Positions 6,648 to 54,360 of a stretch of 54,478 bases of DNA are shown piece by piece; positions within the stretch are counted from its first letter, which is position 1; each line of letters starts with the position of its first letter. Made by a program: the position numbers and the translations under genes. Under the pieces are notes generated by a model, which had not been told where the DNA came from, did no database searches, and saw only the letters and a program-made list of their open reading frames with translations. The stretch comes from Elusimicrobiota bacterium (GTDB taxonomy: Bacteria; Elusimicrobiota; Elusimicrobia; Elusimicrobiales; UBA9959), in NCBI GenBank assembly GCA_016207645.1, contig JACQPH010000074.1:1-54478 (forward strand). Direction: 5' to 3'.

Positions 6648-7493
6648 ATGAATAAAACCCTAAAACTTCTTATCAACCGGGCGAGCTGCCGGACGTTCAC
6701 TAAAAAAAAAGTTTCCCCCGCTGCTCTTGCGAGCCTCTTTGAAGCCGGAATACACGCACCAACCGGCGGCAACCTGCAGCCTTATTCAATAATCAAAATA
6801 GAGAAGGCAGCCGCAACGGCGCGGCTGGCAAAGCTCTGCGGGCAGAGTTTCTTGAAAAAGGCCCCGCTGCACCTGATCTTCTGCATTGATTTCCACAGGC
6901 TGAAACGCTGGGCGAAACTGCAGGAAGCCCCTTTCTCCGCTGAGCGCGCGCTCAGGCCTTTTTGGATAGCGTTCCAGGATACGATAATATGCGCGCAGAG
7001 TATATGCACAGCCGCGGATGCTTTGGGACTTGGGTCGGTGTATATCGGCCCCATCTTCGATAGGATTTCCGCGATCCGTGAAATGTGCCGGCTGCCTAAA
7101 GGCGTAATCCCGGTGGTTTCACTCGCGATGGGATACCCGTCCATATTTCCGGGCCAGCGTAAAAAATTGGGGCCCGGGATAGTCGTGCATAACGAAGTAT
7201 ACCGGGATATCCCGGCCGCGCAGCTTCTATCGGCTTTCGACGAAAAGTACAAAGACGCCAGGAAAGAAATTACCGCTAAAGACCTGAAATCCTTTTATGG
7301 CGCGGTCTCGGCCGTGCACGGCCGGAAATTCGCTCAGAAATGCGTAACGGGTGTGAAGGCCCGTAAATATTTCAACAAGGCGCAGGTTTACTTCGGGCTG
7401 CATTACCGGGCGGACAAGATGTTATTCTCCACGCCGAAGCATTTTAAAATGCTGTCAAGAGCCGGGCTGGCCTGTTTCGATACCGGCAAATGA
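6648..7493 (+). CDS. Nitroreductase-family flavoprotein
   Basis: The 281-residue product has the FMN nitroreductase fold at residues about 1-190: NRASCRTFTKKKVSP at 10-24 (phosphate-binding Arg residues), GIHAPTGGNLQPYSII near 32-47, and SICTAADALGLGSVYIGP near 117-134. A C-terminal extension of about 80 residues is Lys/Tyr-rich and unusual for the family. Members reduce quinones, nitro groups or flavins, and some act as azoline dehydrogenases in peptide natural-product pathways. It ends only about 30 bases before the leader RNA of cassette 1 and may be read together with it, but it has no counterpart at cassette 2. Confidence 0.75.
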   Translation: MNKTLKLLINRASCRTFTKKKVSPAALASLFEAGIHAPTGGNLQPYSIIKIEKAAATARLAKLCGQSFLKKAPLHLIFCIDFHRLKRWAKLQEAPFSAERALRPFWIAFQDTIICAQSICTAADALGLGSVYIGPIFDRISAIREMCRLPKGVIPVVSLAMGYPSIFPGQRKKLGPGIVVHNEVYRDIPAAQLLSAFDEKYKDARKEITAKDLKSFYGAVSAVHGRKFAQKCVTGVKARKYFNKAQVYFGLHYRADKMLFSTPKHFKMLSRAGLACFDTGK

Positions 7494-7523
7494 AAGTGCC
7501 AGGGCGCGTGGCGGTCATAGGGC

Positions 7524-7692
7524 GGGCCTATATCGGGCTAGGTCCAAAGACCCTTTCACATTCAACCCCTTTCGGCTAAACCCTAATCGTAGTATCCTTG
7601 TAATCGGGGGAATCGGCCCCCGGGCATCCACGACCGGACCTTAATCCGGTGTATCCAGGGAGAGCAATCAACTTTGCTTTCCCTTTTTTGTT
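7524..7692 (+). ncRNA. Conserved structured leader RNA, cassette 1
   Basis: The sequence aligns with 49241-49410 upstream of the second peptide gene. Four hairpins are shared, three with paired changes: GGTC-CAAA-GACC at 7541-7552 (GGCC/GGCC in copy 2); CGGGGG-AATCGG-CCCCCG at 7605-7622 (TGGCG/CGCCA in copy 2); ACCGGA-CCTTAA-TCCGGT at 7633-7650 (AACCGA/TCGGTT in copy 2); and the final terminator stem. The single-stranded blocks GTAGTATCCTTGTAAT and GCATCCACGA are conserved. I do not recognise it as a known riboswitch. The design of conserved junctions plus a terminator suggests transcription attenuation controlling the peptide gene. Confidence 0.65.
7658..7690 (+). terminator. Intrinsic terminator/attenuator ending leader RNA 1
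   Basis: GGGAGAGCAA (7658-7667) pairs with TTGCTTTCCC (7674-7683) and is followed by six T residues. It lies 55 bases before the peptide start, so transcription must pass through it to reach the cassette. The same stem stands at 49375-49408. Confidence 0.8.
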
Positions 7693-7744
7693 TGTAAGGC
7701 CGCCGAAAAAAATGGCAGAATATAAAAGTTAAGGGGAAAACAAA

Positions 7745-7942
7745 ATGACTAACAAAGATAAAATAATAGCGGCTTTTCTGGTTTCCGTCGGTATATTTTC
7801 CGTAACCCAGGCCAGCAAATACCTCGGCACAATTTCCCGGACAGAGAAAGACCAGCTCTTTTCCGCCGCGAAAGAGAACCCCGTAAACATCTTGTTGTGT
7901 GAAGAGGTCCATGATTTCACGGACCCTAAAAAAGCCGCTTAA
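7745..7942 (+). CDS. Short secreted peptide precursor, cassette 1
   Basis: The 65-residue product has a charged start (MTNKDK), a hydrophobic core at residues 7-20 and a plausible signal-peptidase site after Ala23 (VTQA-S), leaving a 42-residue mature part. It aligns without gaps to the cassette 2 peptide over residues 1-58, with 33 identities: 20 of 24 in the signal part, 13 of 34 after it. The mature part keeps ILLC at 49-52, Val55 and Phe58. Cys52 is the only Cys. A ribosome site (AAGGGG) precedes ATG. The following radical SAM gene suggests that the peptide is modified; it is most likely a signal or effector peptide. The last codons lie inside a terminator. Confidence 0.75.
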   Translation: MTNKDKIIAAFLVSVGIFSVTQASKYLGTISRTEKDQLFSAAKENPVNILLCEEVHDFTDPKKAA

Positions 7943-7953
7943 GCGGCTTTTTT
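7928..7953 (+). terminator. Terminator overlapping the end of peptide gene 1
   Basis: AAAAAAGCCGCTT and AAGCGGCTTTTTT are perfect inverted arms. The stop codon of the peptide lies at the centre, so the last residues Lys-Lys-Ala-Ala are encoded by the stem. Most transcripts should end here, giving much more peptide message than enzyme message. Confidence 0.8.
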
Positions 7954-8064
7954 CTGGCAGAGGGGTCCTCCCCGGTTCCTTTGCCAGCAGCTGGCCGTGT
8001 CCGTATATTCCCGCTCTAAATCGCCCACATAATTCCCGCGCAGACGCGGCTGGCGCATAAAACT

Positions 8065-8958
8065 ATGAACAGCTATGCCTCTGCCCGCCGCAGCAATAAA
8101 ATCTCCCAATTGGTAATCCTGCCCGGCTATGCGTGTAATTTTAAATGCGCGCATTGTGGGACTGCCGGCGACCGCAGGCTCCATTTGTCCGATAAGGAAA
8201 TCAGGCTGCTCCATAGAACCGTCAACGGCTATGGTTTCAGGTCCGTCTCTTTTGCCGGTGGCGAACCGACGCTCTACATAGATGAAATAAACCGTGTACT
8301 TTCGGGGTTTGCCGAGCTGGAAAAGATCAACGTATCGATAACAACGAACGGGCATTTCGCCGGAACTGTGGCGAAGGCCGCAGGCTTGCTAGCCGCTATT
8401 AAAAAACTGGATAAGGTCCGGTTGTCATACGACAGGTTCCATAAAAGATTCCTGCCTTACGCGCATGTCCACAACCTGTATGAAGCCTGCCGCGGTTCCG
8501 GAGTGGATTTCGGCGCCATCCTCACGATACAATCCCCGTTGGACCTGGTATTGTCGAAAGAGCTGAGGAGGGTCGGCGCTTTCCCGATAGGAGTTCAAAA
8601 AGTTCTCCCGATCGGCAAGGCGAGAAGCAACGGCGTCGGCTACGCACATATGGAATTCGACGCGGCTGTTTTGCGGGAGAAGTGCCCCAATAGAAAGAAA
8701 ATATCATACCTGTGCGGGCGCGGGTTCAGCGTGTGCGATGTCTCTATTTCTTTCAGGGAATTCAAGAAGCACCCCGAGAAATATCTGCGCCCTTCGGCGG
8801 GTGAATTGCTTAAAAGTGATTTTTACCGGCGCATGTCCACCCTGAGGTTCGCGGGGCTTTTAAAACGCTGTGGAGACCCCGCTGTGAAATTTTCACCGGC
8901 ACATTCTTCCCACTGTGTTCTTTGCGAACACATATTTAATTCCGGCGGCGCCGTCTAA
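8065..8958 (+). CDS. Radical SAM enzyme with SPASM/twitch-like C-terminus, cassette 1
   Basis: The 297-residue product has the CX3CX2C cluster motif at Cys24, Cys28 and Cys31 (GYACNFKCAHCG), the GGEPTLY motif near residue 76 and TTNGHF near 92. The C-terminal third has Cys residues kept in the cassette 2 paralogue: KCPN near 211, YLCGRGFSVC near 220-229 and a final CVLCEHIF, which looks like an auxiliary iron-sulphur domain of SPASM/twitch type. Enzymes of this architecture next to short peptide genes usually modify the peptide, for example at Cys. No clear ribosome site precedes the ATG. The target is inferred to be the peptide at 7745. Confidence 0.85.
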   Translation: MNSYASARRSNKISQLVILPGYACNFKCAHCGTAGDRRLHLSDKEIRLLHRTVNGYGFRSVSFAGGEPTLYIDEINRVLSGFAELEKINVSITTNGHFAGTVAKAAGLLAAIKKLDKVRLSYDRFHKRFLPYAHVHNLYEACRGSGVDFGAILTIQSPLDLVLSKELRRVGAFPIGVQKVLPIGKARSNGVGYAHMEFDAAVLREKCPNRKKISYLCGRGFSVCDVSISFREFKKHPEKYLRPSAGELLKSDFYRRMSTLRFAGLLKRCGDPAVKFSPAHSSHCVLCEHIFNSGGAV

Positions 8959-8963
8959 GATCT

Positions 8964-9671
8964 ATGCCTGACAAGCCCGTGCTCTGGAAGACAACCGAAA
9001 AGAACATCTATTACAGGATCGACGCCCTCGAAGCGGTCTGCGACCGGTTGATAGAAGAGCTTCCCTGGCCCGGAAATATCCAGACCCTCTCGTTCTTGTT
9101 CTCTGACTACGGCCCGGATGAATATCTCTCGTTGCGCAGGAATATCTCCGGCAGATATGGCGCGCGGCTGGTGTATTGTGCCGATAAAGAAAAATTGATC
9201 GCTCCGGAAGGCGCGGCTATATCCACAAATATCCGTATAAAGAAAGCCGGCAGCCTTGATGAGATACGGCAGTTGTACCTGTCCACGGTCCTGCGGGTCT
9301 TCAATGAAGAGTTCCCGGGGGAACTTCCCGATTCCCGGATAAAGTTCTCGGAGAACGTGGCCAGGAATTATCTTTCTTCTGAAAAGTCCCTATGCCTGGC
9401 GCAGGGGGAGCGGGTTTCCGGGCTTGTGACGGTGGTAGGGATAAAGGACCACCTGGCGCAGCCCGTAGACTGCGTCAACTGGGTCTGGCTTGATAAAAGC
9501 CTGCGGCTCCCCGAACGGATAGCGGCGCAAGGCCTGATCGTGGAATGGCTGAAGCGGATAGTGGCGCAGCGGGTCAACTGCTATATCGATTCGTTCAATT
9601 TCCGTTCCCAGCGGTTCTTTAGAAGAATAGGTTTTGTTCCGCTATGCCTGAACATCGAAAGAAAATCCTGA
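8964..9671 (+). CDS. GNAT-like acyltransferase, cassette 1
   Basis: The 235-residue product starts six bases after the radical SAM stop. The C-terminal half (about 85-235) has the look of a GNAT fold: SLDEIRQLYLSTVLRVFNEE at the start, a central strand VSGLVTVVGIKD, and the closing NFRSQRFFRRIGFVPL typical of the last helix and strand of acetyltransferases. The N-terminal 80 residues are unfamiliar. The cassette 2 paralogue keeps the overall plan but is clearly diverged. It may acylate the peptide or a partner; a fold-only, non-catalytic role is possible because the acetyl-CoA loop (Q/RxxGxG/A) is not obvious. Confidence 0.65.
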   Translation: MPDKPVLWKTTEKNIYYRIDALEAVCDRLIEELPWPGNIQTLSFLFSDYGPDEYLSLRRNISGRYGARLVYCADKEKLIAPEGAAISTNIRIKKAGSLDEIRQLYLSTVLRVFNEEFPGELPDSRIKFSENVARNYLSSEKSLCLAQGERVSGLVTVVGIKDHLAQPVDCVNWVWLDKSLRLPERIAAQGLIVEWLKRIVAQRVNCYIDSFNFRSQRFFRRIGFVPLCLNIERKS

Positions 9672-11047
9672 CAGCCCTGTCGCTGTCCGCCTGGTTGTTT
9701 TCCTGGGGCTGCGCCTCAAAAAACCAGGAATGGGTCGTTCTATCCAACGGGCTGCCTGAGAAGATCTCCCCGGAACTTGCCAGCAGAAGCGTTGTTTACT
9801 ACATATTAAGGCAGACGCACGAGCCGCTTTTCAGGCTGGACGACGGTGAAAACTATAGCAGCCGCCTGTTGAAGAAATGGGCGAGGAATATCTCGGACGG
9901 CAGTTTTGAGTTCTGTCCCGATACCGCGCTGAAATTCAACGAAGAGACACCATTCTCCAGTGAGCTGTTCGAAAAGTATATCAGTAACATCGCGCGTAAA
10001 TATGATGCATCCGCAAAGATTACTGACAACAGAGGCTGCTTCAAGGTGGCTTTCGCCGGGCCGCGAAACAGTTTCCTGGAGTTCCTGACCCAGTATGAGA
10101 ATGCTCCGTCGGTCAGAGTGTCGGAGGCTTTTGAGCAGGGGCTGGGGCCTTTCAGGATCTCGCGTCTGGGCGGCGGGGAGGCGGTGCTTGCCAGGCGGAC
10201 CCCGGTGTCTTCAGGCTATAATAAAATAATCCTCTATGAATACGGCCTTTGGAAAAAGTCCGGCGGCAGCGACCGCCTGGTTTCTGATTTTAACAGGATC
10301 CCGCCGCAGGATGTTCCCGCCTGGGTTTCAGAGAAATATTCCAGCTTCAACAACGTAACACTAAAGTCCGGTAATTTAATAATTAACCACCCGGATAAGC
10401 GTATCCGGGAGTTGATCTATAACTGTGTGGACGTCCGCCGGTTCAGGCAGGCCTTTTTGCCGTCAAAGAAGGACTTCTACTCAATAAAGAACGTTTTCCC
10501 AATGGGGGTGCCCGGCGCGGAGCCCGGGTTAGCCGAACAAACATGCGGGCAGCCGGTTAAGGCGGCGCTTTCCGGGTCCAGATTTACTTTCGCCAATTGG
10601 CGGGACGACAACCTCAAACAGCTCTCGGAATTCGCGGCGGACTTTTATAAAAATACCGGAGTGAAAATGGAAATTATTAACTCCACTCCGCGAGAGCTGA
10701 TGAAGAATCTCCATAAGGCGCCCAGGCCGTTCAATGCGATAGTAATGTATCTGGACGCCATACGTTCAGAGCAGGCCGCTTTTTTCGAGGTGTTTTTGAA
10801 ATCTGACGGCTATCTGGATTTCCCCCTGCCAAAGGTCGCGGAAATATTAAAGAAGCTGGATGTCGAGCGGGAGGTACAGCGCAGGGAAGCTGTCGGCGCC
10901 GAGATCGCCGCGGCACTAAGAAAAGAAGCCGTCGTTCTGCCATTGTACCAGGAGGAGAGGGTGTTTTACTATCCGAAAGACATCAGGAATCTTAACGTCG
11001 GGGTCGGGTTTATTGAATATCCCGAGGTGGCGGATTTCAGATGGTAA
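9644..11047 (+). CDS. Family-5 extracellular solute-binding lipoprotein, cassette 1
   Basis: The 467-residue product resembles oligopeptide-binding proteins of ABC importers: YYILRQTHEPLFRLDDGENY near 46-65 and ALKFNEETPFSSELFEKYI near 90-108 are the usual early motifs. The N-terminus has a signal with Cys23 in FSWGC, a lipobox-like site although the Trp at -2 is atypical. It starts 28 bases inside the GNAT gene and its stop overlaps the kinase start (ATGGTAA). No permease or ATPase is nearby, so import is unlikely; the arrangement with a sensor kinase suggests that it presents a captured peptide to the kinase at the outer face of the membrane. Confidence 0.85.
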   Translation: MPEHRKKILTALSLSAWLFSWGCASKNQEWVVLSNGLPEKISPELASRSVVYYILRQTHEPLFRLDDGENYSSRLLKKWARNISDGSFEFCPDTALKFNEETPFSSELFEKYISNIARKYDASAKITDNRGCFKVAFAGPRNSFLEFLTQYENAPSVRVSEAFEQGLGPFRISRLGGGEAVLARRTPVSSGYNKIILYEYGLWKKSGGSDRLVSDFNRIPPQDVPAWVSEKYSSFNNVTLKSGNLIINHPDKRIRELIYNCVDVRRFRQAFLPSKKDFYSIKNVFPMGVPGAEPGLAEQTCGQPVKAALSGSRFTFANWRDDNLKQLSEFAADFYKNTGVKMEIINSTPRELMKNLHKAPRPFNAIVMYLDAIRSEQAAFFEVFLKSDGYLDFPLPKVAEILKKLDVEREVQRREAVGAEIAAALRKEAVVLPLYQEERVFYYPKDIRNLNVGVGFIEYPEVADFRW

Positions 11048-12726
11048 AAACTTTCACGCGCATACTGGCCTACAACTGGCGGCACTACGCCGCGGCGGTG
11101 GGAGTGTTCGTGGTATTCTGGCAGGCCTTCTCGGCGTTCTCGGCGGTGCGCGTGGCGGATGACAAGCTGTTGACCGCTCTGCGCCAGAACGCGGCCTATT
11201 TCGAGAAAGCGTTCCTCGCAGGTGACGTCTTCGAGACCCAGCGCATCATCTGGCGCATCAAGAACGATAATATCAAGCGCATCCTTTTCCATCCCGTTCA
11301 GTTCGAGGGCAGCCGCTGGATATTCAAAGAAGCCATCGTCGGGAATCTTTACGACAGGCCGCGCACACAGATAATCCATAATGTGCCGCTCATCTCGAAC
11401 GGCGCGGAGCTGGGCCGGCTGGAATACGTGATAGACCTGGTGGACGTCAACACCTCGGTATTTAAACAGAATTATGTCCTGTTCATCACCGTGGTCTTCT
11501 TTTTCCTGGGACTGCTGGTAATGTCCAACCTCGGCGCCATACAGACCCTGCTGGCCATTGAACGCTCGGTCAATGAAATAAACGCCATCACCGCCTCCGG
11601 CCGGGGAGATATAATCCGTGATTCCATAAAAAAGAACATCTCCCGCCTGCCGGCGGGCATCATCGGCACGCCCTTCGCCCAGATGACCGGGCGCATGAGC
11701 GACGCCCTGGGCCAGGCTGCCCGGCTTGAAAGTGAACTGGCCGTCAGCAAGGCCGTCTCCGACATAGCCGCCCAGGTCGCGCACGACATACGCTCCCCGC
11801 TGGCGGCGCTCGGGGCTGCGGCCAAAAGCCTGGAGCAGCTGCCGGCCGAACAGCGCTCGCTCATAGAGGGCTCCGTGAACCGCATGCAGGGGATAGCCGA
11901 CGATCTGCTGCGGCGCTACCGCGCGCCCGGCGCGGAGATCAAAACCGGACCCGAAGTCACCGCCCTGGCCGGGCTTATAGACCAGGTCCTGGCCGAGAAG
12001 CGCCTGCAGCATAAAGACAAAACCGGCGTTAAGATCGTGTTCACCGACGAGGCTGTGGATGCCAAGGCTTCCATCAAGCCTAAAGAATTCCAGCGGCTTA
12101 TTTCCAACCTGGTGAACAATTCTGTGGAGGCTTTTGAAAAACCCGGCACCGTTTCGGTGGGGCTTTCGACCCTGGATGGCCGCGTTGTCATAGAAATCAA
12201 GGACGATGGCAAAGGGATACCCCCCGAGATCCTGGCCAGGCTAGGCCGGAAGGGCGAAACCCACGGCAAAGCCGGCGGCACCGGCCTCGGGCTTTATCAC
12301 GCCCGCACGACCATAGAGAGCTGGGGCGGCAGCCTACAAATAAGCTCCGAGCCCGGCAAAGGCACATCGGTCACCATAGAGCTGCCGCGCAGCGAGGCCG
12401 CCAGACCGGCCCCCAGTACGGTCATCCTGCTGGACGACGACCCCTTGGTCCACATGAACTGGAAGCTGGCCGCCAAAGCCGCCGGCATGGAGCTGAGGGC
12501 CTGTAAAACCCCGTCAGACCTCGATGCCGCGATAGAGAACCTCCCCAAAGACACCCCCGTCTATATCGATTCCGATCTCGGCGACGGCATAAAAGGCGAG
12601 ACTATCGCCGCCGACCTGCATAATAAAGGTTATTCCGATATCACCATGGCCACCGGCCACAGCCCGGAAAAATTCGCCCACCTCCCCTGGCTGAAAGTAA
12701 CCGGCAAAGAGCCCCCCTGGGCCTGA
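11041..12726 (+). CDS. Membrane hybrid histidine kinase, cassette 1
   Basis: The 561-residue product has a membrane segment at about 13-33, an extracytoplasmic domain of about 110 residues, and a second membrane segment at about 145-165. His248 in QVAHDIRSPLAAL is the phospho-acceptor. The ATPase domain has NLVNNSVEAF (N box), DDGKGIP (G1) and GKAGGTGLGLYHART (G2). A C-terminal receiver domain of about 95 residues has the acidic pair in LLDDDP, acceptor Asp510 in VYIDSD, Thr in MATG and Lys in TGKEPPW. The extracytoplasmic part probably contacts the solute-binding protein encoded just before. No response regulator is adjacent; a sigma-54 activator elsewhere is the inferred target. Confidence 0.92.
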   Translation: MVKTFTRILAYNWRHYAAAVGVFVVFWQAFSAFSAVRVADDKLLTALRQNAAYFEKAFLAGDVFETQRIIWRIKNDNIKRILFHPVQFEGSRWIFKEAIVGNLYDRPRTQIIHNVPLISNGAELGRLEYVIDLVDVNTSVFKQNYVLFITVVFFFLGLLVMSNLGAIQTLLAIERSVNEINAITASGRGDIIRDSIKKNISRLPAGIIGTPFAQMTGRMSDALGQAARLESELAVSKAVSDIAAQVAHDIRSPLAALGAAAKSLEQLPAEQRSLIEGSVNRMQGIADDLLRRYRAPGAEIKTGPEVTALAGLIDQVLAEKRLQHKDKTGVKIVFTDEAVDAKASIKPKEFQRLISNLVNNSVEAFEKPGTVSVGLSTLDGRVVIEIKDDGKGIPPEILARLGRKGETHGKAGGTGLGLYHARTTIESWGGSLQISSEPGKGTSVTIELPRSEAARPAPSTVILLDDDPLVHMNWKLAAKAAGMELRACKTPSDLDAAIENLPKDTPVYIDSDLGDGIKGETIAADLHNKGYSDITMATGHSPEKFAHLPWLKVTGKEPPWA

Positions 12727-12946: not shown

Positions 12947-13840
12947 ATGAAAAAGAGCAACATACTGATAGCGGTGTTCACGGTGATGTCGGCGGCCTCG
13001 GCCGCCCGGGCCCAGATCAACATTAATGTAGACTTCGACGGTACGCTTAAGGCACAGTCCAAACACAGCGTCTTCACGGAATCCCTCCAGATCATCCCTG
13101 ACGATGCCATGCCGGTTCCGACGCCTTCGCCTATCCAGGGCAGTTGTGCCATGTATTGCCCGCCTTTCCAGGCCAACGACGGCCTGCATGTTGTCTCTTC
13201 GGACTGCTGCGGTAGTCAGCCCCCGGTGTTCCCGCCGTGGATTCGCGCCGCTATGCGCGCCACTACGGAAGGCACCGCAATCTCAGCCCCGTCCATACAA
13301 CAGGAAGAAACCTTCTTGCGCCTTAACGTGGCTGTGGTTCATGGTGTTATACAAGGAGCAATAGAATCATGCGCGGCTGAAGGCAAGGGGACCGTAATGA
13401 TTAACCTAAAGAACCTGCTCGACTATGGCACTACAAAAGAGAAAGCGGCTTTTGTGTATAATAAGCGTGGCACATATTCCTTTCCGGCCGGTATTATTGC
13501 CCGACGTTTTAATACCGGCGGCGGAGAGGTTTCTGGTAATAAGAGCCGCGACTCACTTAATCTTACCTGTAATTCCTGGACCACCGTGCAGGTGTGTACG
13601 AACCGTCAGGTATGCCGCATAGCCTGTGCAGCCGCGGCGGGAGCCGCCGGAGCGGCGGCTGGTGGCAGTATAGGCGCTGGTGCCGCTATCGGGGCCTCAG
13701 GGCAAATTTGCCAGGAGCTGTGTGAGAATGTGAAGGAATGCTCCAACGTCAGAGAATGCGCCAGCTGGTCCAGTACAGCCGGAACCGGGACTGACGCTCA
13801 TGGTCATTACCGCGGCCGCGCCGTAGCTTTCCAGAACTAG
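12947..13840 (+). CDS. Secreted Cys-rich protein, sigma-54 controlled
   Basis: The 297-residue product has a signal peptide (MKKSNILIAVF..., cut near ARAQ, residue 23). It contains many Cys residues, including SCAMYC near 66-71, DCC, a C-terminal cluster VCTNRQVCRIAC and then CQELC...C...C. Between the last clusters lies a Gly/Ala-rich hydrophobic stretch (about residues 224-248) that could insert in a membrane. I recognise no family. A ribosome site (GGAG) precedes the ATG. Its promoter has the same enhancer pair and sigma-54 site as cassette 2, so it is probably an output of the peptide circuit, for instance a secreted effector. The next gene encodes a small membrane protein. Confidence 0.65.
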   Translation: MKKSNILIAVFTVMSAASAARAQININVDFDGTLKAQSKHSVFTESLQIIPDDAMPVPTPSPIQGSCAMYCPPFQANDGLHVVSSDCCGSQPPVFPPWIRAAMRATTEGTAISAPSIQQEETFLRLNVAVVHGVIQGAIESCAAEGKGTVMINLKNLLDYGTTKEKAAFVYNKRGTYSFPAGIIARRFNTGGGEVSGNKSRDSLNLTCNSWTTVQVCTNRQVCRIACAAAAGAAGAAAGGSIGAGAAIGASGQICQELCENVKECSNVRECASWSSTAGTGTDAHGHYRGRAVAFQN

Positions 13841-14348: not shown

Positions 14349-14374
14349 TGACTTAGAATGTAAGATATTTGTGT

Positions 14375-14995
14375 ATGCCCGACAACCCGCATAGTTATAA
14401 AGAAACTTTTGAGCGCCTCTACGAGATCGCCGAAGGGCAGGGCGGTTATTTCACCCCCAAGCAGGCGGCGGCGGCTGGCTTCTGCAGGAATAACCATAGC
14501 TACCATGTACGGATGGGCAATTGGATCAGGGAGCGCCGCGGAATCTATCGCCTGGCCAAGTTCCCCCCCGCGGAACGGCCCGACCTCATGTTCTGGTGGC
14601 TGTGGTCGCGCAATCACAACGACGTCCCGCAGGGCGTCTATTCGCACGAAACAGCCCTGAGCATTTACGATCTTTCGGATATCAATCCGGCCAGGCTGCA
14701 TATGACCGTACCTCGCTCTTTTCGGCGAAGGGGCGCCCCAGCCAGACTCCCGGTCCTTCACCGCGCCAACGTGCACAAAGACGATATCGGTAAAAGATTC
14801 GGCGTCAGAGTAACCCGGCCGCTCAAAACTATCGCCGATCTTCTATCCACCCGCACGGTCCAGATGGATCACATGCAGCAAGCGGTGAAGCAGGCGTTCC
14901 AGCGCGGGCTCATTACCCGCACGGAGCTGGAGCGAGCCAAACGGATTCCGGCCGCAATAAAGAAAGAGATCGAGCAGCTCAGGGGAGACCAATAA
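14375..14995 (+). CDS. abiEi: AbiEi-family antitoxin
   Basis: The 206-residue product matches the AbiEi antitoxin of type IV toxin-antitoxin systems: an N-terminal winged-helix part (about 8-60, YEIAEGQGGYFTPKQAAAAG and RRGIYRLAKFPP), then YSHETALSIYDLSDINPARL and the LKTIADLL segment. It represses its own operon and counters the AbiEii nucleotidyltransferase. ATG 14375 is preferred over an in-frame TTG six bases upstream. Its stop overlaps the AbiEii start (TAATG). Confidence 0.88.
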   Translation: MPDNPHSYKETFERLYEIAEGQGGYFTPKQAAAAGFCRNNHSYHVRMGNWIRERRGIYRLAKFPPAERPDLMFWWLWSRNHNDVPQGVYSHETALSIYDLSDINPARLHMTVPRSFRRRGAPARLPVLHRANVHKDDIGKRFGVRVTRPLKTIADLLSTRTVQMDHMQQAVKQAFQRGLITRTELERAKRIPAAIKKEIEQLRGDQ

Positions 14996-15858
14996 TGGAC
15001 AAGAAGACGTACGCCAGCCCCGCAGCATTCCGCCGCGCCCTCGAAGACCGGCTCAAACAAAAAGCAAGAAATGAAGGTCTGGATTTCCAGCGTCTTATGC
15101 GGGAAGTATCTTTTGACCGCCTGCTGGCCCGTTTGTTCGCCCGGAAAGACGCGGCCTGGATACTTAAAGGCGGCTATGCCCTGGAATTGCGGATGAAAGA
15201 AGCCCGCGCAACCAAGGATATCGACCTGGCCCTCCGGCATTCCCTGGGCACACAGGAAGACCAGCCTCTTAAAGCGGCGATCCTTAAAGCGCTCGCGGAG
15301 TCCGCGGCCTGGGACCTGGGCGATTTCTTTTCGTTCAGTATCGGCGAAGCCATGCCGGACCTGGATGCGGCGCCCTACGGCGGCGCCCGCTTCCCCGTCG
15401 AAGCCCTTGTGGACGACCGGACTTTTGTGCGCTTTCACCTCGATGTCGGCGCCGGCGATGTGGTCCTTGCTCCGTTCGATACTACGCAGGCCCATGACTG
15501 GCTCGCGTTCGCCGGCATCCCCGGCGCCGAGTTCCCCACTATTTCGCGGGAGCAGCACTTCGCGGAAAAGCTTCACTCCTACACCCTCCCGCGCGAGACG
15601 CCCAACTCCCGCGCCCGCGATCTTATTGATATGCTTCTGCTCATCGGCTCCGGCAAAATGGATCATGCCAGGGTCCGGCTGGCGCTGGACGCCACGTTTA
15701 AACGCCGGAAGACTCACCCCATGCCGGCGGCTCTCACCCGGCCGCCCGCCGCCTGGAAGGCGCCCTTCGGGGCTTTAGCCGGCGCGTGCGGCCTGCCCGC
15801 GGACCTGGCGGCGGCGTTTGAAATTCTAAATTCCTTCTACTCCCGGCTGCCAGAGTAG
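14995..15858 (+). CDS. abiEii: AbiEii-family nucleotidyltransferase toxin
   Basis: The 287-residue product carries the nucleotidyltransferase core of the AbiEii/AbiGii family: WILKGGYALELR with the Gly pair at 59-60, and ATKDIDLAL with Asp75 and Asp77. Toxins of this family modify tRNA or nucleotides to stop growth, for example during phage attack. It is coupled to AbiEi by a one-base overlap, and the pair appears complete. It is the last intact gene on the left of the right-hand island repeat. Confidence 0.88.
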   Translation: MDKKTYASPAAFRRALEDRLKQKARNEGLDFQRLMREVSFDRLLARLFARKDAAWILKGGYALELRMKEARATKDIDLALRHSLGTQEDQPLKAAILKALAESAAWDLGDFFSFSIGEAMPDLDAAPYGGARFPVEALVDDRTFVRFHLDVGAGDVVLAPFDTTQAHDWLAFAGIPGAEFPTISREQHFAEKLHSYTLPRETPNSRARDLIDMLLLIGSGKMDHARVRLALDATFKRRKTHPMPAALTRPPAAWKAPFGALAGACGLPADLAAAFEILNSFYSRLPE

Positions 15859-49211: not shown

Positions 49212-49240
49212 CCGTAGCGCATGTAGCAAGAAATAAGTCA

Positions 49241-49410
49241 GGGCCCATTGCCGGCTAGGCCCAAAGGCCCTTCCTGAAAGCGAAGTTCTCTGTAAAACTA
49301 GAGTTGTAGTATCCTTGTAATTTGGCGGATTGGCGCCAGAGCATCCACGAACCGACCGTAATCGGTTGTACCCAGGGAGAGCAAAATCAAACTTGCTTTC
49401 CCTTTTTTGT
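49241..49410 (+). ncRNA. Conserved structured leader RNA, cassette 2
   Basis: This is the partner of 7524-7692. Stems are GGCC-CAAA-GGCC (49258-49269), TGGCG-GATTGG-CGCCA (49323-49338), AACCGA-CCGTAA-TCGGTT (49350-49367) and the terminator stem. Stem bases differ from copy 1 in pairs while GTAGTATCCTTGTAAT (49307-49322) and GCATCCACGA (49341-49350) are unchanged. The segment between the first stem and GTAGTATCC is the least alike. Transcription from the sigma-54 promoter must pass through this RNA. Confidence 0.65.
49375..49408 (+). terminator. Intrinsic terminator/attenuator ending leader RNA 2
   Basis: GGGAGAGCAA (49375-49384) pairs with TTGCTTTCCC (49393-49402), followed by six T residues. 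It stands 62 bases before the peptide ATG. Confidence 0.8.
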
Positions 49411-49470: not shown

Positions 49471-49683
49471 ATGACTAATAAAGACAAAATGATAGCGGCC
49501 TTCCTGGTTTCAGTCGGGGTATTCTCAGGTGTCCAGGCCAGCCAGTACGTAAGCACACTTAATACTAAAGAAAAGAAGGTTTTATTGCCTGTGGCCAAAG
49601 CGAAAGACGGCAAAATACTGCTTTGTAGTGGTGTTGAGTCGTTTATAAAAACCGACGGCGACGGCACGGTTAAATCTGTTTAA
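49471..49683 (+). CDS. Short secreted peptide precursor, cassette 2
   Basis: The 70-residue product has the same plan as the cassette 1 peptide: MTNKDK, a hydrophobic core at 7-20, a likely cleavage after Ala23 (VQA-S), a variable charged middle and ILLC at 49-52 with the only Cys at position 52. Val55 and Phe58 are also kept; beyond residue 58 the two tails differ in length and sequence (this one is Asp/Gly/Lys-rich). The ribosome site (AAGGGG) and the 30 bases before ATG are nearly the same in both cassettes. It is the likely substrate of the radical SAM protein that follows. Confidence 0.75.
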   Translation: MTNKDKMIAAFLVSVGVFSGVQASQYVSTLNTKEKKVLLPVAKAKDGKILLCSGVESFIKTDGDGTVKSV

Positions 49684-49719: not shown

Positions 49720-49766
49720 CCCCCAATTCTGATATTTTATGAGAAATAAAATATCAGAATTGGGGG
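49720..49766 (+). promoter_or_regulatory. Long perfect hairpin over the radical SAM start codon
   Basis: The arms 49720-49740 and 49746-49766 are perfect 21-base inverted repeats with loop GAGAA. The ATG of the radical SAM gene (49739-49741) lies at the tip of the stem, and there is no ribosome site. As RNA this would strongly hide the start or protect the 3' end of the peptide message. It takes the place that a terminator holds in cassette 1. Confidence 0.7.
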
Positions 49767-50653
49767 TCGTAGTTGGTTATGCCTGTAATTTTAAATGTGC
49801 GCATTGCGGTGTTTCCGGAAAAAAACAATTAAGGCTGACTCGGGCTGAAATAAGCCTGGTGGTGGACAGCATTAACAGCTATGCGATAAGGTCTTTGCTT
49901 TTTGTGGGAGGGGAGCCATCCCTATATGTTGAGGATATAAACAGAATTCTTTCCGGTGTTCGTGATCTAAAAAACACAGGCGTCCGAATAACAACAAATG
50001 GACATTTCTCTAAGACCAAAGCTTCGGCTATTCAACTTTTATCCAAATTTTCTCGCTTAACAAAGGTCCAACTGTCCTACGATGTTTTTCATAAAAAGTT
50101 TCTACCTTTAAGCAGGGTGACAAATCTTTACCAGGCCTGTAGCGCGCTGGGGATCCATTTCAGCGTAGTTCTTTCGATCCAATCGCCTTTGGACCTGGCT
50201 TTAATTCAGGATCTCAGGAAAGCGGGGCCTTTTCCTGTCGGTGTCCAGAAAGTCCTCCCCACAGGCTCGGCCAGGGAGAACGGTTTATCCCTGTTATTTC
50301 AAAGTTTTGATGCGGACGTGCTTTCGCGCAGGTGCCCGAATCGTGACGGCTTAATATATCTGTGCGGGGAGGGTTTCAGCGTCTGTTGCTCGTCCCTTGT
50401 TTTTAACTGCCCGGCAAATAATTATATCCATTCAACTGTCGGAAGGCATCTGAGAAGCAGGTTCTATAAACTGATAACAAAACACCCCTTCCAGGAAATA
50501 ATCGGACGTCTTGGACTTCCATTGTCGGTGTGCGATTTTAAACCCTGCCATTCAAATCCTTGCGGCATATGCGAGCACATATTCACAGCAGCGGCGCAAA
50601 AAAGGGGGGCCGGTGAAAGTATTAAAAGCTGCAGAAAAAGAAATTCTCTTTGA
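49739..50653 (+). CDS. Radical SAM enzyme with SPASM/twitch-like C-terminus, cassette 2
   Basis: The 304-residue product has CX3CX2C at Cys16, Cys20 and Cys23 (GYACNFKCAHCG), VGGEPSLYVEDINRIL near 59-74 and TTNGHFSKT. Like its paralogue at 8065 it keeps RCPN, YLCGEGFSVC and a final CGICEHIF, suggesting a second cluster. It lacks the first ten residues of the paralogue and starts within a hairpin. Base composition is clearly AT-richer than the housekeeping genes and than the kinase gene that ends the cassette. Confidence 0.85.
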   Translation: MRNKISELGVVVGYACNFKCAHCGVSGKKQLRLTRAEISLVVDSINSYAIRSLLFVGGEPSLYVEDINRILSGVRDLKNTGVRITTNGHFSKTKASAIQLLSKFSRLTKVQLSYDVFHKKFLPLSRVTNLYQACSALGIHFSVVLSIQSPLDLALIQDLRKAGPFPVGVQKVLPTGSARENGLSLLFQSFDADVLSRRCPNRDGLIYLCGEGFSVCCSSLVFNCPANNYIHSTVGRHLRSRFYKLITKHPFQEIIGRLGLPLSVCDFKPCHSNPCGICEHIFTAAAQKRGAGESIKSCRKRNSL

Positions 50654-51296
50654 AGTAACGTGCCCTTCCGAGTTTTCACCGGAGGTGCTAAACTCCCTGA
50701 AGTGGACGGAAGCTTTGAGGGTAATGCGATTTTATTTGGGACGAAGGGTCTGTAATGAAGAAGATGCCGTGAAGCTTCTGCTTGGAAGTTATCCGACATG
50801 GGTGGTCTATTCAGCGGATAAGAATGACTTTTTGTCCGCACCCACGGAACCTCCCGTCCGTTTAACCCCCGCCCCCCAAATGGATTTGGAGCAGTTGCGG
50901 CGCGTATATATATCCACAAATGATTCATATCATGACTCGATAGGGAAACCTCTGTCTCCCGCGGAATCCGCAGAAAGGGAAAGTGTATTGTCGGAGTTCC
51001 TTCCCTCGGCTAAATTCAGCGCTTTTAAAAACAATGGCGTGGTTATGGCGTTGCTTGTTGTTGTAAAGTGGAAGGATTGTTTTGATAAGCCGGTGGATTG
51101 GGTCCCGTGGGTGTGGATCGACAGGTCATTGCTCCCTGGTGAACGGGCGTTTGTGCGTTCAAAATGGAAAGAATGGCTGCGCGGCATTGTCGAGGATAGG
51201 GTACAGTGCATTGTGGAAGGCGAAAACATGCGTTCCAGAAAATTTTTCAGGGGAATGGGCTTTCATCCGGAATGCTTAGTAATTTCAAAAAAATAA
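50613..51296 (+). CDS. GNAT-like protein, cassette 2
   Basis: The 227-residue product is best started at GTG 50613, which has AGGGGGG before it and gives the same N-terminal layout as the cassette 1 protein; it overlaps the radical SAM gene by 41 bases. DLEQLRRVYISTNDSY near 92-107, WVPWVWIDRSLLPGERAFV and the closing MRSRKFFRGMGFHPEC match the paralogue and a GNAT-like fold. It is one of the most diverged proteins between the two cassettes, which would fit a role tied to the particular peptide. Confidence 0.62.
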   Translation: MKVLKAAEKEILFEVTCPSEFSPEVLNSLKWTEALRVMRFYLGRRVCNEEDAVKLLLGSYPTWVVYSADKNDFLSAPTEPPVRLTPAPQMDLEQLRRVYISTNDSYHDSIGKPLSPAESAERESVLSEFLPSAKFSAFKNNGVVMALLVVVKWKDCFDKPVDWVPWVWIDRSLLPGERAFVRSKWKEWLRGIVEDRVQCIVEGENMRSRKFFRGMGFHPECLVISKK

Positions 51297-52684
51297 AATT
51301 ACCCCTGCTGATCCTGCTGATCTGTGTTCTGGCATTGCTGGGATATAGAAGGGACTCCGCGCATACTTGGGAGGTGCTCACAGGGGGGCTGCCACAGGAA
51401 ATAAGCACTGCGAAGGCGGCGATAAATTCCGTCTATTACATCCTGAAACAGACGCATGAGCCGCTATTTCGCAAGAATGATGGGCAAAATTACTCCTCGA
51501 GACTTTTATCGACCTGGAGCCGGAATATCGATTACTCGTCCTATATATTCTGTCTTAAGCCGGGGTTAGATTTTGAGAACGAAAAACCTTTTGATGCTGC
51601 TTCCTTTTCGGAGCACCTTAGAGCTATAACCCAAAACTATGACGCCGCTTCTTCAATTTCAATGGAAGGGGATTGCGCGCGGGTTAAGTTCGGCAGGGGG
51701 AGAAGGGGTTTTCTGGATTATCTCACTTTGTATGAGAATGCTCCGACTATCCGGAAAAAGGGCGGGGCTGAGCTCGGTCTTGGGCCGTTTGCAGTGGAAG
51801 GCGGTGACAGGGAACAGTTGGTCATGAAACGCAAGGCGCCTGTCTCGCGAGGTGTTGATAAAATAATATTTCATGAGTATCAGGGCGATGGGGATAAGAA
51901 TTTAGAGAACAGGAACATTTCAGACTTCAACCGCCTTTCCTCTTTTGAGATCCCCGGGTGGGTTAAGGAGAACTACTTACAGTTCGCGAATATCGAGCTG
52001 AATTCCGTGGATTTAATTTTAAATCATAAAGATAAAGCGGTTCGTGATGTGCTGTATAATTGCATCGATGTTGACCGGTTTCGGCGCGCGTTTGTACCGC
52101 GCAGAGATAAATTCTTGGATATAAAAACTGTTTTACCTGTGGGCGTGCCCGGGGCATCGCCCGGGAAACCGGAGCAGTTGTGCAAAGCCGCTGCCGAAAA
52201 GCTGAAAACAGGAAAGAGAATAGTTTTTGCTAATTGGAGGGAGGATAATAAAAAAGAGTTGGAGGCATTTTTCGGGGATTTCTTCCAGAAAACCGGCATC
52301 CGCGTCGATGTTGTAAATTATTCTCCGAGCGATTTAATGCGGGTAATGTTCAATAGTCCGAGGCCGTACAACCTGTTGGTCGTTGTATTCGACGCGGTAC
52401 GTCCTGAAGAAAATGTTTTTTTAAATTCTTTCTTTCGCAAAGAAAATTATCTCGATTTTTCTCTCCCGGGGATATCCCCTCTCTATAACAAAATGATGTT
52501 CGAGGACGACCCTGTTGTCCGTATGCGGTATGCGAAGGAGATTTCCCTGGAATTGGGAAAAGAGCGGGTTGTATTGCCGCTCTATCAAAGTCTTGGGGTC
52601 CTTTATTATCCTCAAAATATTAGGAATCTGGATGTGGGGATCGGTTTTATTGAATACCCTGAAGTTGCGGATTTAAGATGGTAA
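51272..52684 (+). CDS. Family-5 solute-binding protein, cassette 2
   Basis: The 470-residue product matches the cassette 1 binding protein along its length: YYILKQTHEPLFRKNDGQNY near 46-65, YENAPTIRKKGGAELGLGPF, DLILNHKDKAVRDVLYNCIDVDRFR and the C-terminal NIRNLDVGIGFIEYPEVADLRW-type end. It starts inside the GNAT gene and ends in ATGGTAA shared with the kinase start. The N-terminus has a hydrophobic segment with a Cys in LLICVLALLG but no proper lipobox, so it may be held by an uncleaved helix rather than lipid. No transporter genes are present. Confidence 0.85.
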   Translation: MLSNFKKIKLPLLILLICVLALLGYRRDSAHTWEVLTGGLPQEISTAKAAINSVYYILKQTHEPLFRKNDGQNYSSRLLSTWSRNIDYSSYIFCLKPGLDFENEKPFDAASFSEHLRAITQNYDAASSISMEGDCARVKFGRGRRGFLDYLTLYENAPTIRKKGGAELGLGPFAVEGGDREQLVMKRKAPVSRGVDKIIFHEYQGDGDKNLENRNISDFNRLSSFEIPGWVKENYLQFANIELNSVDLILNHKDKAVRDVLYNCIDVDRFRRAFVPRRDKFLDIKTVLPVGVPGASPGKPEQLCKAAAEKLKTGKRIVFANWREDNKKELEAFFGDFFQKTGIRVDVVNYSPSDLMRVMFNSPRPYNLLVVVFDAVRPEENVFLNSFFRKENYLDFSLPGISPLYNKMMFEDDPVVRMRYAKEISLELGKERVVLPLYQSLGVLYYPQNIRNLDVGIGFIEYPEVADLRW

Positions 52685-54360
52685 AAATTCTGAGCAGAGC
52701 GTTTTCCTATAATTGGAAATACTACGCCGCGGCGGTGGCGGTGTTCGTGGCTTTCTGGCAGTTGTTCTCGGTCTTCTCAGCCGTGCGCGTAGCGGACGAC
52801 AAATTGCTGACCGCCATGCGGCAGAACGCGGCCTACTTCGAGAAAGCCTTCCTGGAGGGCGACGTCTTCGAGACCCAGCGCATAATGTGGCGCGTCAAGA
52901 ACGAGAATATAAAGCGCATCACTTTCCATCCTATAGAATTTGAAGGCACAAAGTGGATATTCAAAGAAGCCATAGTCGGAAATCTTTACGGCCGGCCGCG
53001 CGCGCAGCTTAACCGTGAAGTGCCGTTGATCTCCAACGGGGTCGAGCTGGGCCGCCTGGAATACGTGATAGACCTGGTGGACGTGAACTCCGCGGTCTTC
53101 GGGCAGAACTATGCGCTGTTCATAACCGTGGTGTTCTTCTTCATGGGCCTGCTGGCCCTTTCCAACATCGGGGCCATAAAGACCATTTTCAGCATCGAGC
53201 GCTGCGTGGACGAGACCAATGCGCTGGCGGCCTCGGGCGAGCACTCCAAGATCCGGGATTCGATACAGCGCAGCATCCAGTCGCTTCCGGCAGGTCTGCG
53301 CAGCACGCCTTTCGCCGTTTTAATCGGGCGCCTGGCCGAGGTCCTGCAGAAGGCCTCCCGCCTTGAGAGCGAACTGGCCGTTTCAAAAGCCACGTCCGAC
53401 CTGGCCGCCCAGGTCGCCCACGACATCCGCTCCCCCCTAGCGGCACTGGGCGCAACCGCCAAGGGGTTAACCCTCTCCGACGACCAGCGCACGCTGATAG
53501 ACGGCTCTATAGGGCGAATGCAGGGCATAGCCAACGATCTGCTGGCCCGCTACCGCGCTCCGGGCGCGGCGGTGCCGGCCAGGTCCGAAACCTGCGTGCT
53601 GGCCCCTCTTATAGAGCAGGTCCTGGCCGAGAAGCGCCTGCAGCACCGGGACAAGGCCGGTGTAAAAATAGAATTCAACCAAGGCGCAGACGGCATTAAA
53701 GCCGCGGTAGATCCGCAAGAACTTCAGCGCATTATCTCCAATCTCGTGAACAACTCGGTTGAAGCCTTTCCCGGCGCGGGGACCGTCTCCGTGAGCCTGG
53801 TGGCTTCAGACGGAAAGGTCTTGATCGAAATACGGGACAACGGCAAGGGCATCCCTCCGGGGATCCTGGCGAAGCTCGGCCAGAAAGGCGAGACCCATGG
53901 CAAAGCCGGCGGCACCGGCCTCGGGCTCTATCACGCCCGCACGACCGTAGAGAACTGGGGCGGCAGCCTGAAGCTAAGCTCCGAGCCCGGCAAAGGCACA
54001 TCAGTCACCATAGAGCTGCCGCGCATCGAGGCCGCCAGGCCGGCCGCCGGCGCGGCCATTCTGTTGGACGACGACCCACTGGTCCATATGAACTGGAAGC
54101 TGGCCGCCAAAGCCGCCGGCGCGGACCTGAAGGCCTGTAAAGCCCCGGCAGACCTCGATGCTGCAATAGTAAACCTCCCCAAAGACACGCCTGTCTATAT
54201 AGATTCCGATCTCGGCGACGGCCTAAATGGCGAGACCATCGCCGCCGACCTGTATAATAAGGGATATTCCAATATCTCCATGGCCACCGGCCACGGCCCG
54301 GAAAAGTTCGCCCACCTCCCCTGGCTAAAAGTCGCCGGTAAAGAGCCCCCCTGGTCCTGA
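52678..54360 (+). CDS. Membrane hybrid histidine kinase, cassette 2
   Basis: The 560-residue product is a close paralogue of the kinase at 11041, with the same two membrane segments, extracytoplasmic domain, His248 in QVAHDIRSPLAAL, ATPase boxes and C-terminal receiver (LLDDDP, VYIDSD, MATG, AGKEPPW). Similarity is high along the whole chain, even in the outer domain, while the genes before it have diverged much more. The DNA turns from AT-rich to GC-rich within the first 40 bases of this gene. This fits a conserved signalling core joined to exchangeable peptide-recognition genes. Confidence 0.92.
   Translation: MVKILSRAFSYNWKYYAAAVAVFVAFWQLFSVFSAVRVADDKLLTAMRQNAAYFEKAFLEGDVFETQRIMWRVKNENIKRITFHPIEFEGTKWIFKEAIVGNLYGRPRAQLNREVPLISNGVELGRLEYVIDLVDVNSAVFGQNYALFITVVFFFMGLLALSNIGAIKTIFSIERCVDETNALAASGEHSKIRDSIQRSIQSLPAGLRSTPFAVLIGRLAEVLQKASRLESELAVSKATSDLAAQVAHDIRSPLAALGATAKGLTLSDDQRTLIDGSIGRMQGIANDLLARYRAPGAAVPARSETCVLAPLIEQVLAEKRLQHRDKAGVKIEFNQGADGIKAAVDPQELQRIISNLVNNSVEAFPGAGTVSVSLVASDGKVLIEIRDNGKGIPPGILAKLGQKGETHGKAGGTGLGLYHARTTVENWGGSLKLSSEPGKGTSVTIELPRIEAARPAAGAAILLDDDPLVHMNWKLAAKAAGADLKACKAPADLDAAIVNLPKDTPVYIDSDLGDGLNGETIAADLYNKGYSNISMATGHGPEKFAHLPWLKVAGKEPPWS

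Follow-up and report, generated by a model that had tools for sequence, protein, structure and literature searches.

Riboswitch-led cassettes joining an EpeE-like radical SAM enzyme to a peptide-type binding protein: a candidate modified-peptide signalling system in Elusimicrobiota

The window analyzed here, a 54,478-nucleotide stretch of contig JACQPH010000074.1 (positions 1 to 54,478, forward strand; assembly GCA_016207645.1) from an Elusimicrobiota bacterium, carries two five-gene cassettes on its forward strand, each encoding a short precursor peptide, a radical SAM enzyme, a GNAT-like protein, a solute-binding protein, and a hybrid kinase. In cassette 1 these are a 65-residue precursor (7745–7942), which as across the family is the open reading frame (ORF) directly 5′ of the radical SAM gene; an EpeE/YydG-like radical SAM enzyme (8065–8958; Pfam Radical_SAM, E 9e-10); a GNAT-fold protein (8964–9671); a family-5-like extracellular solute-binding protein (9644–11047); and a membrane hybrid histidine kinase (11041–12726). 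Cassette 2 comprises a 70-residue precursor (49471–49683), identified by comparison with peptide 1 and the family; a second EpeE/YydG-like enzyme (49739–50653), assigned by Pfam and profile comparison; a GNAT-like protein (50613–51296, with a probable GTG start at 50613); a solute-binding protein (51272–52684, with a likely ATG start at 51272 in a frame open from a GTG at 51206); and a membrane hybrid histidine kinase (52678–54360), assigned by its domain matches and its identity to kinase 1. ORF and pairwise comparisons bear out two observations of a preliminary description of this DNA: the gene order is the same in both copies, and so is the style of overlap, the binding-protein gene beginning within the GNAT gene and its final codons overlapping the kinase start. 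Identity between the copies is 55% for the peptide, 50% for the radical SAM enzyme, 30% for the GNAT-like protein, 45% for the binding protein, and 74% for the kinase; the cassettes are diverged duplicates.

Both cassettes are headed by a 2′-dG-II riboswitch aptamer (RF03165) at 7593–7663 (81.3 bits) and 49310–49380 (81.4 bits), each clearing the family gathering cut-off of 60 bits, and by an overlapping intrinsic terminator, at 7657–7689 and 49374–49408; the preliminary description mentioned neither element. The 5′ arm of the cassette 1 terminator is the 3′ strand of aptamer helix P1, and the cassette 2 terminator overlaps the same strand; in both, the predicted 5′ arm begins at aptamer position 65. 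Both riboswitches are predicted to be of the ON type, because ligand binding should hold P1 and so prevent termination. Among 90 riboswitch sites, the best-scoring part of a longer list of matches in the phylum, a rule-based search detected a terminator at 63 and none at 27, and the 5′ arm starts inside the 3′ end of the aptamer in 61 of the 63. An over-threshold riboswitch precedes 20 of 24 evaluable cassettes with a recognizable peptide, counted from 27 cassettes (two in the window and 25 in loci L048–L080), of which three were set aside for having less than 200 bases of upstream DNA. Within cassette 1, an inverted repeat ending in T6 (7928–7953), read directly from the sequence, spans the stop codon of peptide 1 and is a possible attenuator between peptide and enzyme; the terminator scan did not pick it up, and no counterpart was seen in cassette 2.

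Further upstream lies an operator-like motif, GGGCCTA-N8-TAGGNCCNNNGGNCCCT, at 7521–7554 for cassette 1 (30.3 bits in an expectation-maximization motif model, second best in the window) and 49238–49271 for cassette 2 (34.2 bits, the best); the next score in the window, 12.6 bits, is the opposite strand of the site at 49238. The corresponding pattern matches fall at 7524–7555 (two mismatches) and 49241–49272. The motif thus sits where the intervals of the preliminary description start (7524 and 49241), although that description left it unmentioned. In the form GGGCCTA-N8-TAGGCCCTANGGCCCT, the motif typically stands 70–78 bases 5′ of the aptamer (middle half of sites); its information content is 22.5 bits, against 7.8 for shuffled input, and sites above 9 bits occur in 84 of 96 distinct upstream regions, the same regions that formed the training set. 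A genome-wide pattern search at three mismatches returned five matches, compared with three and seven for a reversed control, and this nearness to noise is why the weight matrix was relied on instead. The motif is also found upstream of Endonuclease I genes of the genus in 17 of 29 loci, and is absent from 12, compared with 7 of 1200 control windows; the gene was placed in 30 of 30 loci, one being dropped for having less than 150 bases, and the frame in L288 may be wrong. No 2′-dG-II riboswitch was found in the 20 of these 30 loci that were searched for one. Elsewhere in the window's own genome (L264 1501–2484, contig C97), the motif stands without a riboswitch before a secreted-looking Endonuclease I gene.

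By profile comparison, the radical SAM enzyme is related, distantly but over its full length, to the epipeptide epimerase EpeE/YydG: the family profile matches EpeE/YydG structures (8ai1–8ai6) with E 2e-25 over profile positions 7–286 of 290, the next protein following at 8e-9, and TIGR04078 matches all 26 family members. This places closest to the enzyme a known peptide modifier, as the preliminary description had supposed from the adjacent short gene. Seven cysteines are invariant among the 26 members: Cys24, Cys28, and Cys31 form the radical SAM motif, and Cys207, Cys224, Cys284, and Cys287 could ligate a second cluster. EpeE is proposed to return a hydrogen atom through Cys223, where thioether synthases use a cysteine of the peptide instead (PMC8326336). 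Residues 224–225 read Cys-Asp in cassette 1 and Cys-Cys in cassette 2; across 19 compared cassettes, position 225 is Cys in 16 and Asp in three, cassette 1 among them. A candidate rule by which loss of Cys225 goes with a Cys-containing core (thioether rather than epimer) fits all three Asp225 cassettes but also 10 of the 16 with Cys225, and is a hint at most. On another contig of the same genome (C163; L046 7645–9850), a 2′-dG-II riboswitch is followed by a 358-residue YydG-like radical SAM protein (TIGR04078 E 8e-22) and a 331-residue protein of unknown family.

The precursors couple a conserved signal-like leader (consensus M-x-NKDK-x-IAAFLVS-x-G-x-FS-xx-QA-x-QYV-xx-LS-xx-EK, with a signal-peptidase-like QA site picked out by eye) to a hypervariable C-terminus whose mean identity over the 19 cassettes is 16%. 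An invariant Cys52, to which the preliminary description had given a central role, holds just between the two window copies: the C-terminal part contains at least one Cys in 13 of the 19 cassettes and lacks Cys in six, so that Cys52 was dropped as the modified residue.

Attempts to place the binding protein by domain profile fall short of the Pfam PF00496 cut-off (25.0 bits for copy 2 against 32.4; no match for copy 1). However, a structure model of copy 1 (predicted local distance difference test score, pLDDT, 86.5) retrieves dipeptide-, oligopeptide-, glutathione-, and nickel-binding proteins in Foldseek, the best match being a dipeptide-binding protein (E 6e-25, query template modelling, TM, score 0.71), and the profile matches include NikA, CntA-type, and OppA proteins. 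No ABC transporter was found in the cassettes or in the nine flanking window proteins that were scanned, which cover the flanks in part. The hybrid kinases have HisKA and HATPase_c domains (E 1e-7 and 3e-25 in kinase 1), whereas the receiver domain is weak, reaching 13.6 bits in copy 1 against a cut-off of 30.2 and not being listed for copy 2. A 7TMR-DISM kinase elsewhere in the genome has the same output module, residues 241–540 being 78–92% identical to kinase 1 and 58–92% to kinase 2. In other genomes, NtrC/sigma-54 regulators adjoin cassettes (L053 6735–8274, L251 1040–2673, L255 1960–3589, and L252 7786–9201; Pfam backs the NtrC type in L053, L251, and L252), and a protein of about 80 residues with a possible phospho-accepting His, judged by eye, accompanies the regulator in L053, L251, and L255 but not in L252. 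As a candidate output, neither the regulator nor the small protein turned up in the window's genome, an empty result that says little.

A GNAT-like gene occupies the third position in both window copies, with Pfam scores below the cut-off (15.2 bits against 25.4 for copy 1; no match for copy 2), and protein 1 has a GNAT fold by its model (pLDDT 90.5): the top Foldseek match is 3frm, a protein of unknown function (1.8e-9), the best match named as GNAT is 7q3a (1.7e-8), and most of the 50 listed are acyltransferases, with TM scores of 0.3–0.5. Elsewhere the same position holds a beta-lactamase-fold hydrolase (L062, E 2e-61; L052, L065, and L071 by eye), an M3 peptidase (L053), or a transglutaminase-like protein (L060), or is empty (e.g., L063). 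Judged from gene content across these loci, the GNAT position is an exchangeable slot, and not the fixed part of the cassette that it had been taken for.

The arrangement is not confined to this genome, an outcome that the preliminary description had named as refuting its proposal. Searched with the radical SAM profile, 84,980 species genomes yielded 58 loci. In 26 of these the enzyme matches at 31–51% identity; 24 of the records are titled Elusimicrobia or Elusimicrobiales and two just "bacterium". One further match, full-length, comes from a record bearing the title Halobacteriovorax marinus, and the other 31, in other records, are partial. Among the 27 strong loci, several of them cut by contig ends, 25 have the peptide directly 5′ of the enzyme, 25 carry both enzyme and binding protein, 19 have the binding protein next to the kinase, and 10 have a recognized GNAT. 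The binding protein finds matches in 30 of the 340 genomes of phylum Elusimicrobiota, a few of them partial or weak, and has two in this genome. Halobacteriovorax is a predatory genus, and its class belongs, we take it, to another phylum, Bdellovibrionota. Within that class the binding protein was matched in 9 of 129 genomes (three or four partly), using a query alignment that included the Halobacteriovorax genome's own binding protein. Among the nine neighbourhoods (L251–L259), L251–L255 carry precursor, enzyme, GNAT, binding protein, and kinase (the L254 kinase being truncated where its contig stops); no enzyme was recognized in L256 or L257, and the neighbourhoods of L258 and L259 are divergent. 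The cassette thus appears to be found in a second phylum.

In this second group, searching 316 ORFs in L251–L259 with the leader profile gave six top hits, all directly upstream of an enzyme (E 1e-7 to 0.03), and for each of these none of 1000 shuffles scored as high; the motif shared with the L137 Halobacteriovorax precursor is weak by comparison, 26 of 5000 shuffles scoring as high. The L254 precursor ends in three near-copies of a core (RAMRAVAATMSA, RAMRAVAATMSA, and RADRAVAATMIK), and those of L253 and L137 contain repeated AIAWA-like units; such tandem or repeated cores are the layout expected of modified-peptide precursors. An Endonuclease I gene (L137 5918–6748) lies upstream of the Halobacteriovorax cassette.

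Distances within the 19 cassettes were compared by Mantel tests (500 permutations, lowest attainable p 0.002) and the topologies by FastTree trees. On average, the binding proteins are 41% identical, the enzymes 42%, and the kinase sensors 77%. Enzyme and binding-protein distances correlate (r 0.72), and the peptide C-terminus correlates with the enzyme (r 0.44) and with the binding protein (r 0.33), all three at the floor p of 0.002; against four kinase parts, enzyme and binding protein give r −0.10 to 0.09 and the peptide C-terminus 0.10 to 0.16. Enzyme and binding-protein trees have 8 of 16 splits in common and share none with the kinase tree; at support of at least 0.9, four enzyme/binding-protein splits are shared and again none with the kinase. 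In one genome (G123), the kinases of three cassettes form a single clade (support 1.0); their enzymes and binding proteins do not. These patterns are most simply read as joint movement and diversification of peptide, enzyme, and binding protein, with the kinase homogenized or exchanged. The agreement of enzyme and binding-protein distances and trees, with no split shared by the kinase, suggests that the first three parts form a specificity unit set on a conserved kinase.

The riboswitch heads a wider set of genes. RF03165 occurs in 97 of the 340 phylum genomes, 88 above the family cut-off, and the 88 tabulated sites, partly the same loci as the cassettes scored above for riboswitch presence, divide into 12 EpeE-like cassettes, three with YcaO, two with a SPASM radical SAM enzyme, seven with a short peptide before a binding protein, one with another binding protein, nine with "FDG" proteins, and 54 others; a peptide, modifying-enzyme, or binding-protein unit thus lies behind 25 of the 88. 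By a crude signal-peptide rule, 71 of 84 riboswitch first genes are positive, against 87 of 251 long control ORFs, a control that includes spurious ORFs. In parallel units, other short peptides accompany a SPASM radical SAM enzyme or a YcaO protein, or stand without an enzyme, in most cases next to a family-5 binding protein. L094, L103, and L189 consist of a riboswitch, short peptide, and YcaO-like protein (PF02624 shown for L103), and those of L103 and L189 add a family-5 binding protein, a parallel cassette with a different enzyme of ribosomally synthesized and post-translationally modified peptides (RiPPs). In L091, L171, and L099, a riboswitch is followed by genes for a short peptide and a binding protein, and L091 and L171 also have a radical SAM enzyme of SPASM type; in L098, L106, L176, L186, L181, and L202, a 47–77-residue peptide and family-5 binding protein follow the riboswitch without a modifying enzyme, with a kinase next in L186.

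Several neighbouring genes deserve record. Just 3′ of cassette 1 lies a gene of uncertain membership for a secreted-looking protein with a "VDFDG" motif (12947–13840, forward strand), for which family scans gave no match; similar proteins led by the riboswitch occur in other genomes. Proteins that look secreted and have an N-terminal "FDG" motif recur beside cassettes (L071 11451–12164, L052 8465–9130, L065 9800–10480, and L064 5879–6703, the last with an ADP-ribosyltransferase exoenzyme domain, PF03496) and in other places are headed by their own 2′-dG-II riboswitch. In the window, a nitroreductase-family gene (6648–7493) precedes cassette 1, and an AbiEi/AbiEii toxin–antitoxin pair lies at 14369–15858. 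A nitroreductase look-alike sits between binding protein and kinase in L058 (9810–10727), and a TldD/TldE-like protease pair, identified by eye, adjoins the cassette at L061 (8748–11421) and L063 (3848–6524).

We consider it moderately probable that the cassettes encode a pheromone circuit of RiPP type gated by 2′-deoxyguanosine (dG); the modification, export, binding, signalling, and in vivo ligand are what we infer from sequence. Rising dG, for instance from degraded DNA, would bind the leader RNA and hold helix P1, blocking the overlapping terminator so that the operon is transcribed. The EpeE/YydG-like enzyme would then modify the variable C-terminal part of the 65–70-residue precursor, most likely by epimerization of aliphatic residues, with possibly another outcome in cassette 1; the exchangeable third enzyme may sometimes tailor the peptide, and the signal-like leader would serve its release. 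A cognate solute-binding protein would capture the product and present it to the conserved membrane hybrid kinase, which would relay the signal as a common output, with peptide, enzyme, and binding protein as the specificity unit. The fit to a communication circuit, also proposed in the preliminary description, follows because the enzyme stands near a known peptide modifier, the binding protein has a peptide-type fold, and the three parts change together; the recurring gene order agrees with that proposal, and its central Cys52 and fixed GNAT have fallen away.

Several results weigh against this pheromone reading. The window enzymes score 41.6 and 52.7 bits against TIGR04078 and so miss its equivalog cut-off of 300; EpeE Cys223 aligns to either 224 or 225 here, ambiguous by one residue with an inferred numbering offset, and Asp occupies 225 in cassette 1 and two others. 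The 19 cassettes in the Mantel and tree tests are not independent; the peptide C-terminus correlates with one of the four kinase parts, the linker (r 0.16, p 0.03); the link between binding protein and leader is lost once the enzyme is allowed for (partial r −0.15); and the shared enzyme/binding-protein splits drop to five at support of at least 0.7. Four of the 24 evaluable cassettes (L050, L055, L064, and L069) have no over-threshold riboswitch, though a 24.7-bit remnant lies upstream of L069. The L255 precursor fails to match the leader profile, and a signal peptide alone could account for part of the leader match. Neither a dedicated exporter nor a leader peptidase was identified, and no response-regulator partner was found in this genome, in searches at E 10 and E 1e-60 whose empty result says little.

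The chief rival, which we hold to be unlikely but the most serious of those considered, is that the product is an epipeptide-like antimicrobial or cannibalism toxin, with the binding protein and kinase as the producer's sensor for immunity or autoinduction. EpeE, the closest characterized enzyme, makes a toxin (PMC8326336, PMC12871923), the variable C-terminus and exchangeable hydrolases would be compatible with one, and some cassettes have secreted-looking "FDG" proteins nearby, including one that carries an ADP-ribosyltransferase domain. However, no EpeAB-type transporter was seen among the nine flanking window proteins scanned in the partly covered flanks, and variation in the binding protein follows that in enzyme and peptide, as a receptor's should. 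This co-variation also tells against the rather improbable alternative that binding protein and kinase respond to a nutrient from outside (a peptide, nucleoside, or metal chelate) and the cassette peptide has a separate envelope role: family-5 proteins do bind many small ligands, the profile reaches NikA, CntA-type, and OppA proteins, and the riboswitch, together with the operator motif shared by secreted Endonuclease I genes in 17 of 29 loci, hints at nucleotide scavenging, but on this view the binding protein ought not to follow peptide and enzyme more closely than it follows its kinase, and further riboswitch-led units likewise pair a short peptide with a binding protein. Equally improbable in our estimate is that the leader RNA is vestigial or responds to some other guanine nucleoside, leaving the cassette outside the control of DNA-derived dG; simulated 2′-dG-II aptamers are reported to recognize guanosine besides dG (PMC8872408), a sister class binds both alike (PMC9295807), and no over-threshold riboswitch was found at L137 or L251–L259, the Halobacteriovorax group—the first and last of these points count against the dG-gated pheromone reading too—yet both window copies score highly, the terminator overlap holds at 61 of the 63 sites with a terminator, and the class is reported to favour 2′-deoxyguanosine (PMC8872408, PMC9295807).

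Among described systems, epeXEPAB of Bacillus subtilis resembles the cassettes in its short secreted precursor followed by a radical SAM enzyme of full-length homology, and cassette 1 adds a possible terminator between peptide and enzyme, as reported for epeX/epeE (PMC12871923). It differs in that the cassettes have a binding protein and hybrid kinase in place of EpeP and EpeAB, a 2′-dG-II riboswitch in front, a GNAT or other slot gene, and an enzyme far below the family cut-off. Like the cassettes, the agr and ComX/ComP systems keep in a single operon the precursor of a variable peptide, an enzyme that modifies or processes it, and a receptor kinase; in the cassettes, however, recognition seems placed in the extracellular binding protein, and the kinase sensor is conserved. 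LuxP/LuxQ likewise sets a periplasmic binding protein beside a hybrid sensor kinase, a likeness of arrangement; the cassette binding protein is of a different family, and its ligand is apparently a cassette-encoded peptide. To the 2′-dG-II systems already described the cassettes are linked by the RNA family, by the motif shared here with Endonuclease I—which with ComEC is among the genes listed as controlled by this class—and by the receiver-like end of the kinase (PMC8872408). The literature searched showed no link between 2′-dG-II riboswitches and modified-peptide cassettes, and no paper joining riboswitch, radical SAM, precursor peptide, and pheromone, although the 2017 riboswitch paper or the EpeE structure paper may mention one; papers on riboswitches in Elusimicrobia and on radical SAM in groundwater Elusimicrobia looked unrelated.

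It is possible, though we hold this part of the proposal doubtful, that the cassettes represent a new class of communication system, conserved in Elusimicrobiota and Halobacteriovorax relatives: pheromones of RiPP type would be detected by an extracellular binding protein set on a hybrid kinase common to the cassettes, and the specificity units of peptide, enzyme, and receptor (pherotypes) could be swapped; the system would be gated by dG in Elusimicrobiota and share an operator with secreted DNases, so that cells would signal to kin when DNA of dead cells is present. The 2′-dG-II riboswitches have so far been little explained biologically, and the downstream genes named in PMC8872408 look unrelated. 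If the pheromone reading is right, nucleic-acid breakdown would be tied to peptide signalling, peptide recognition would sit in the binding protein rather than in the kinase, and a phylum known mostly from metagenomes would gain a testable communication system with many natural variants.

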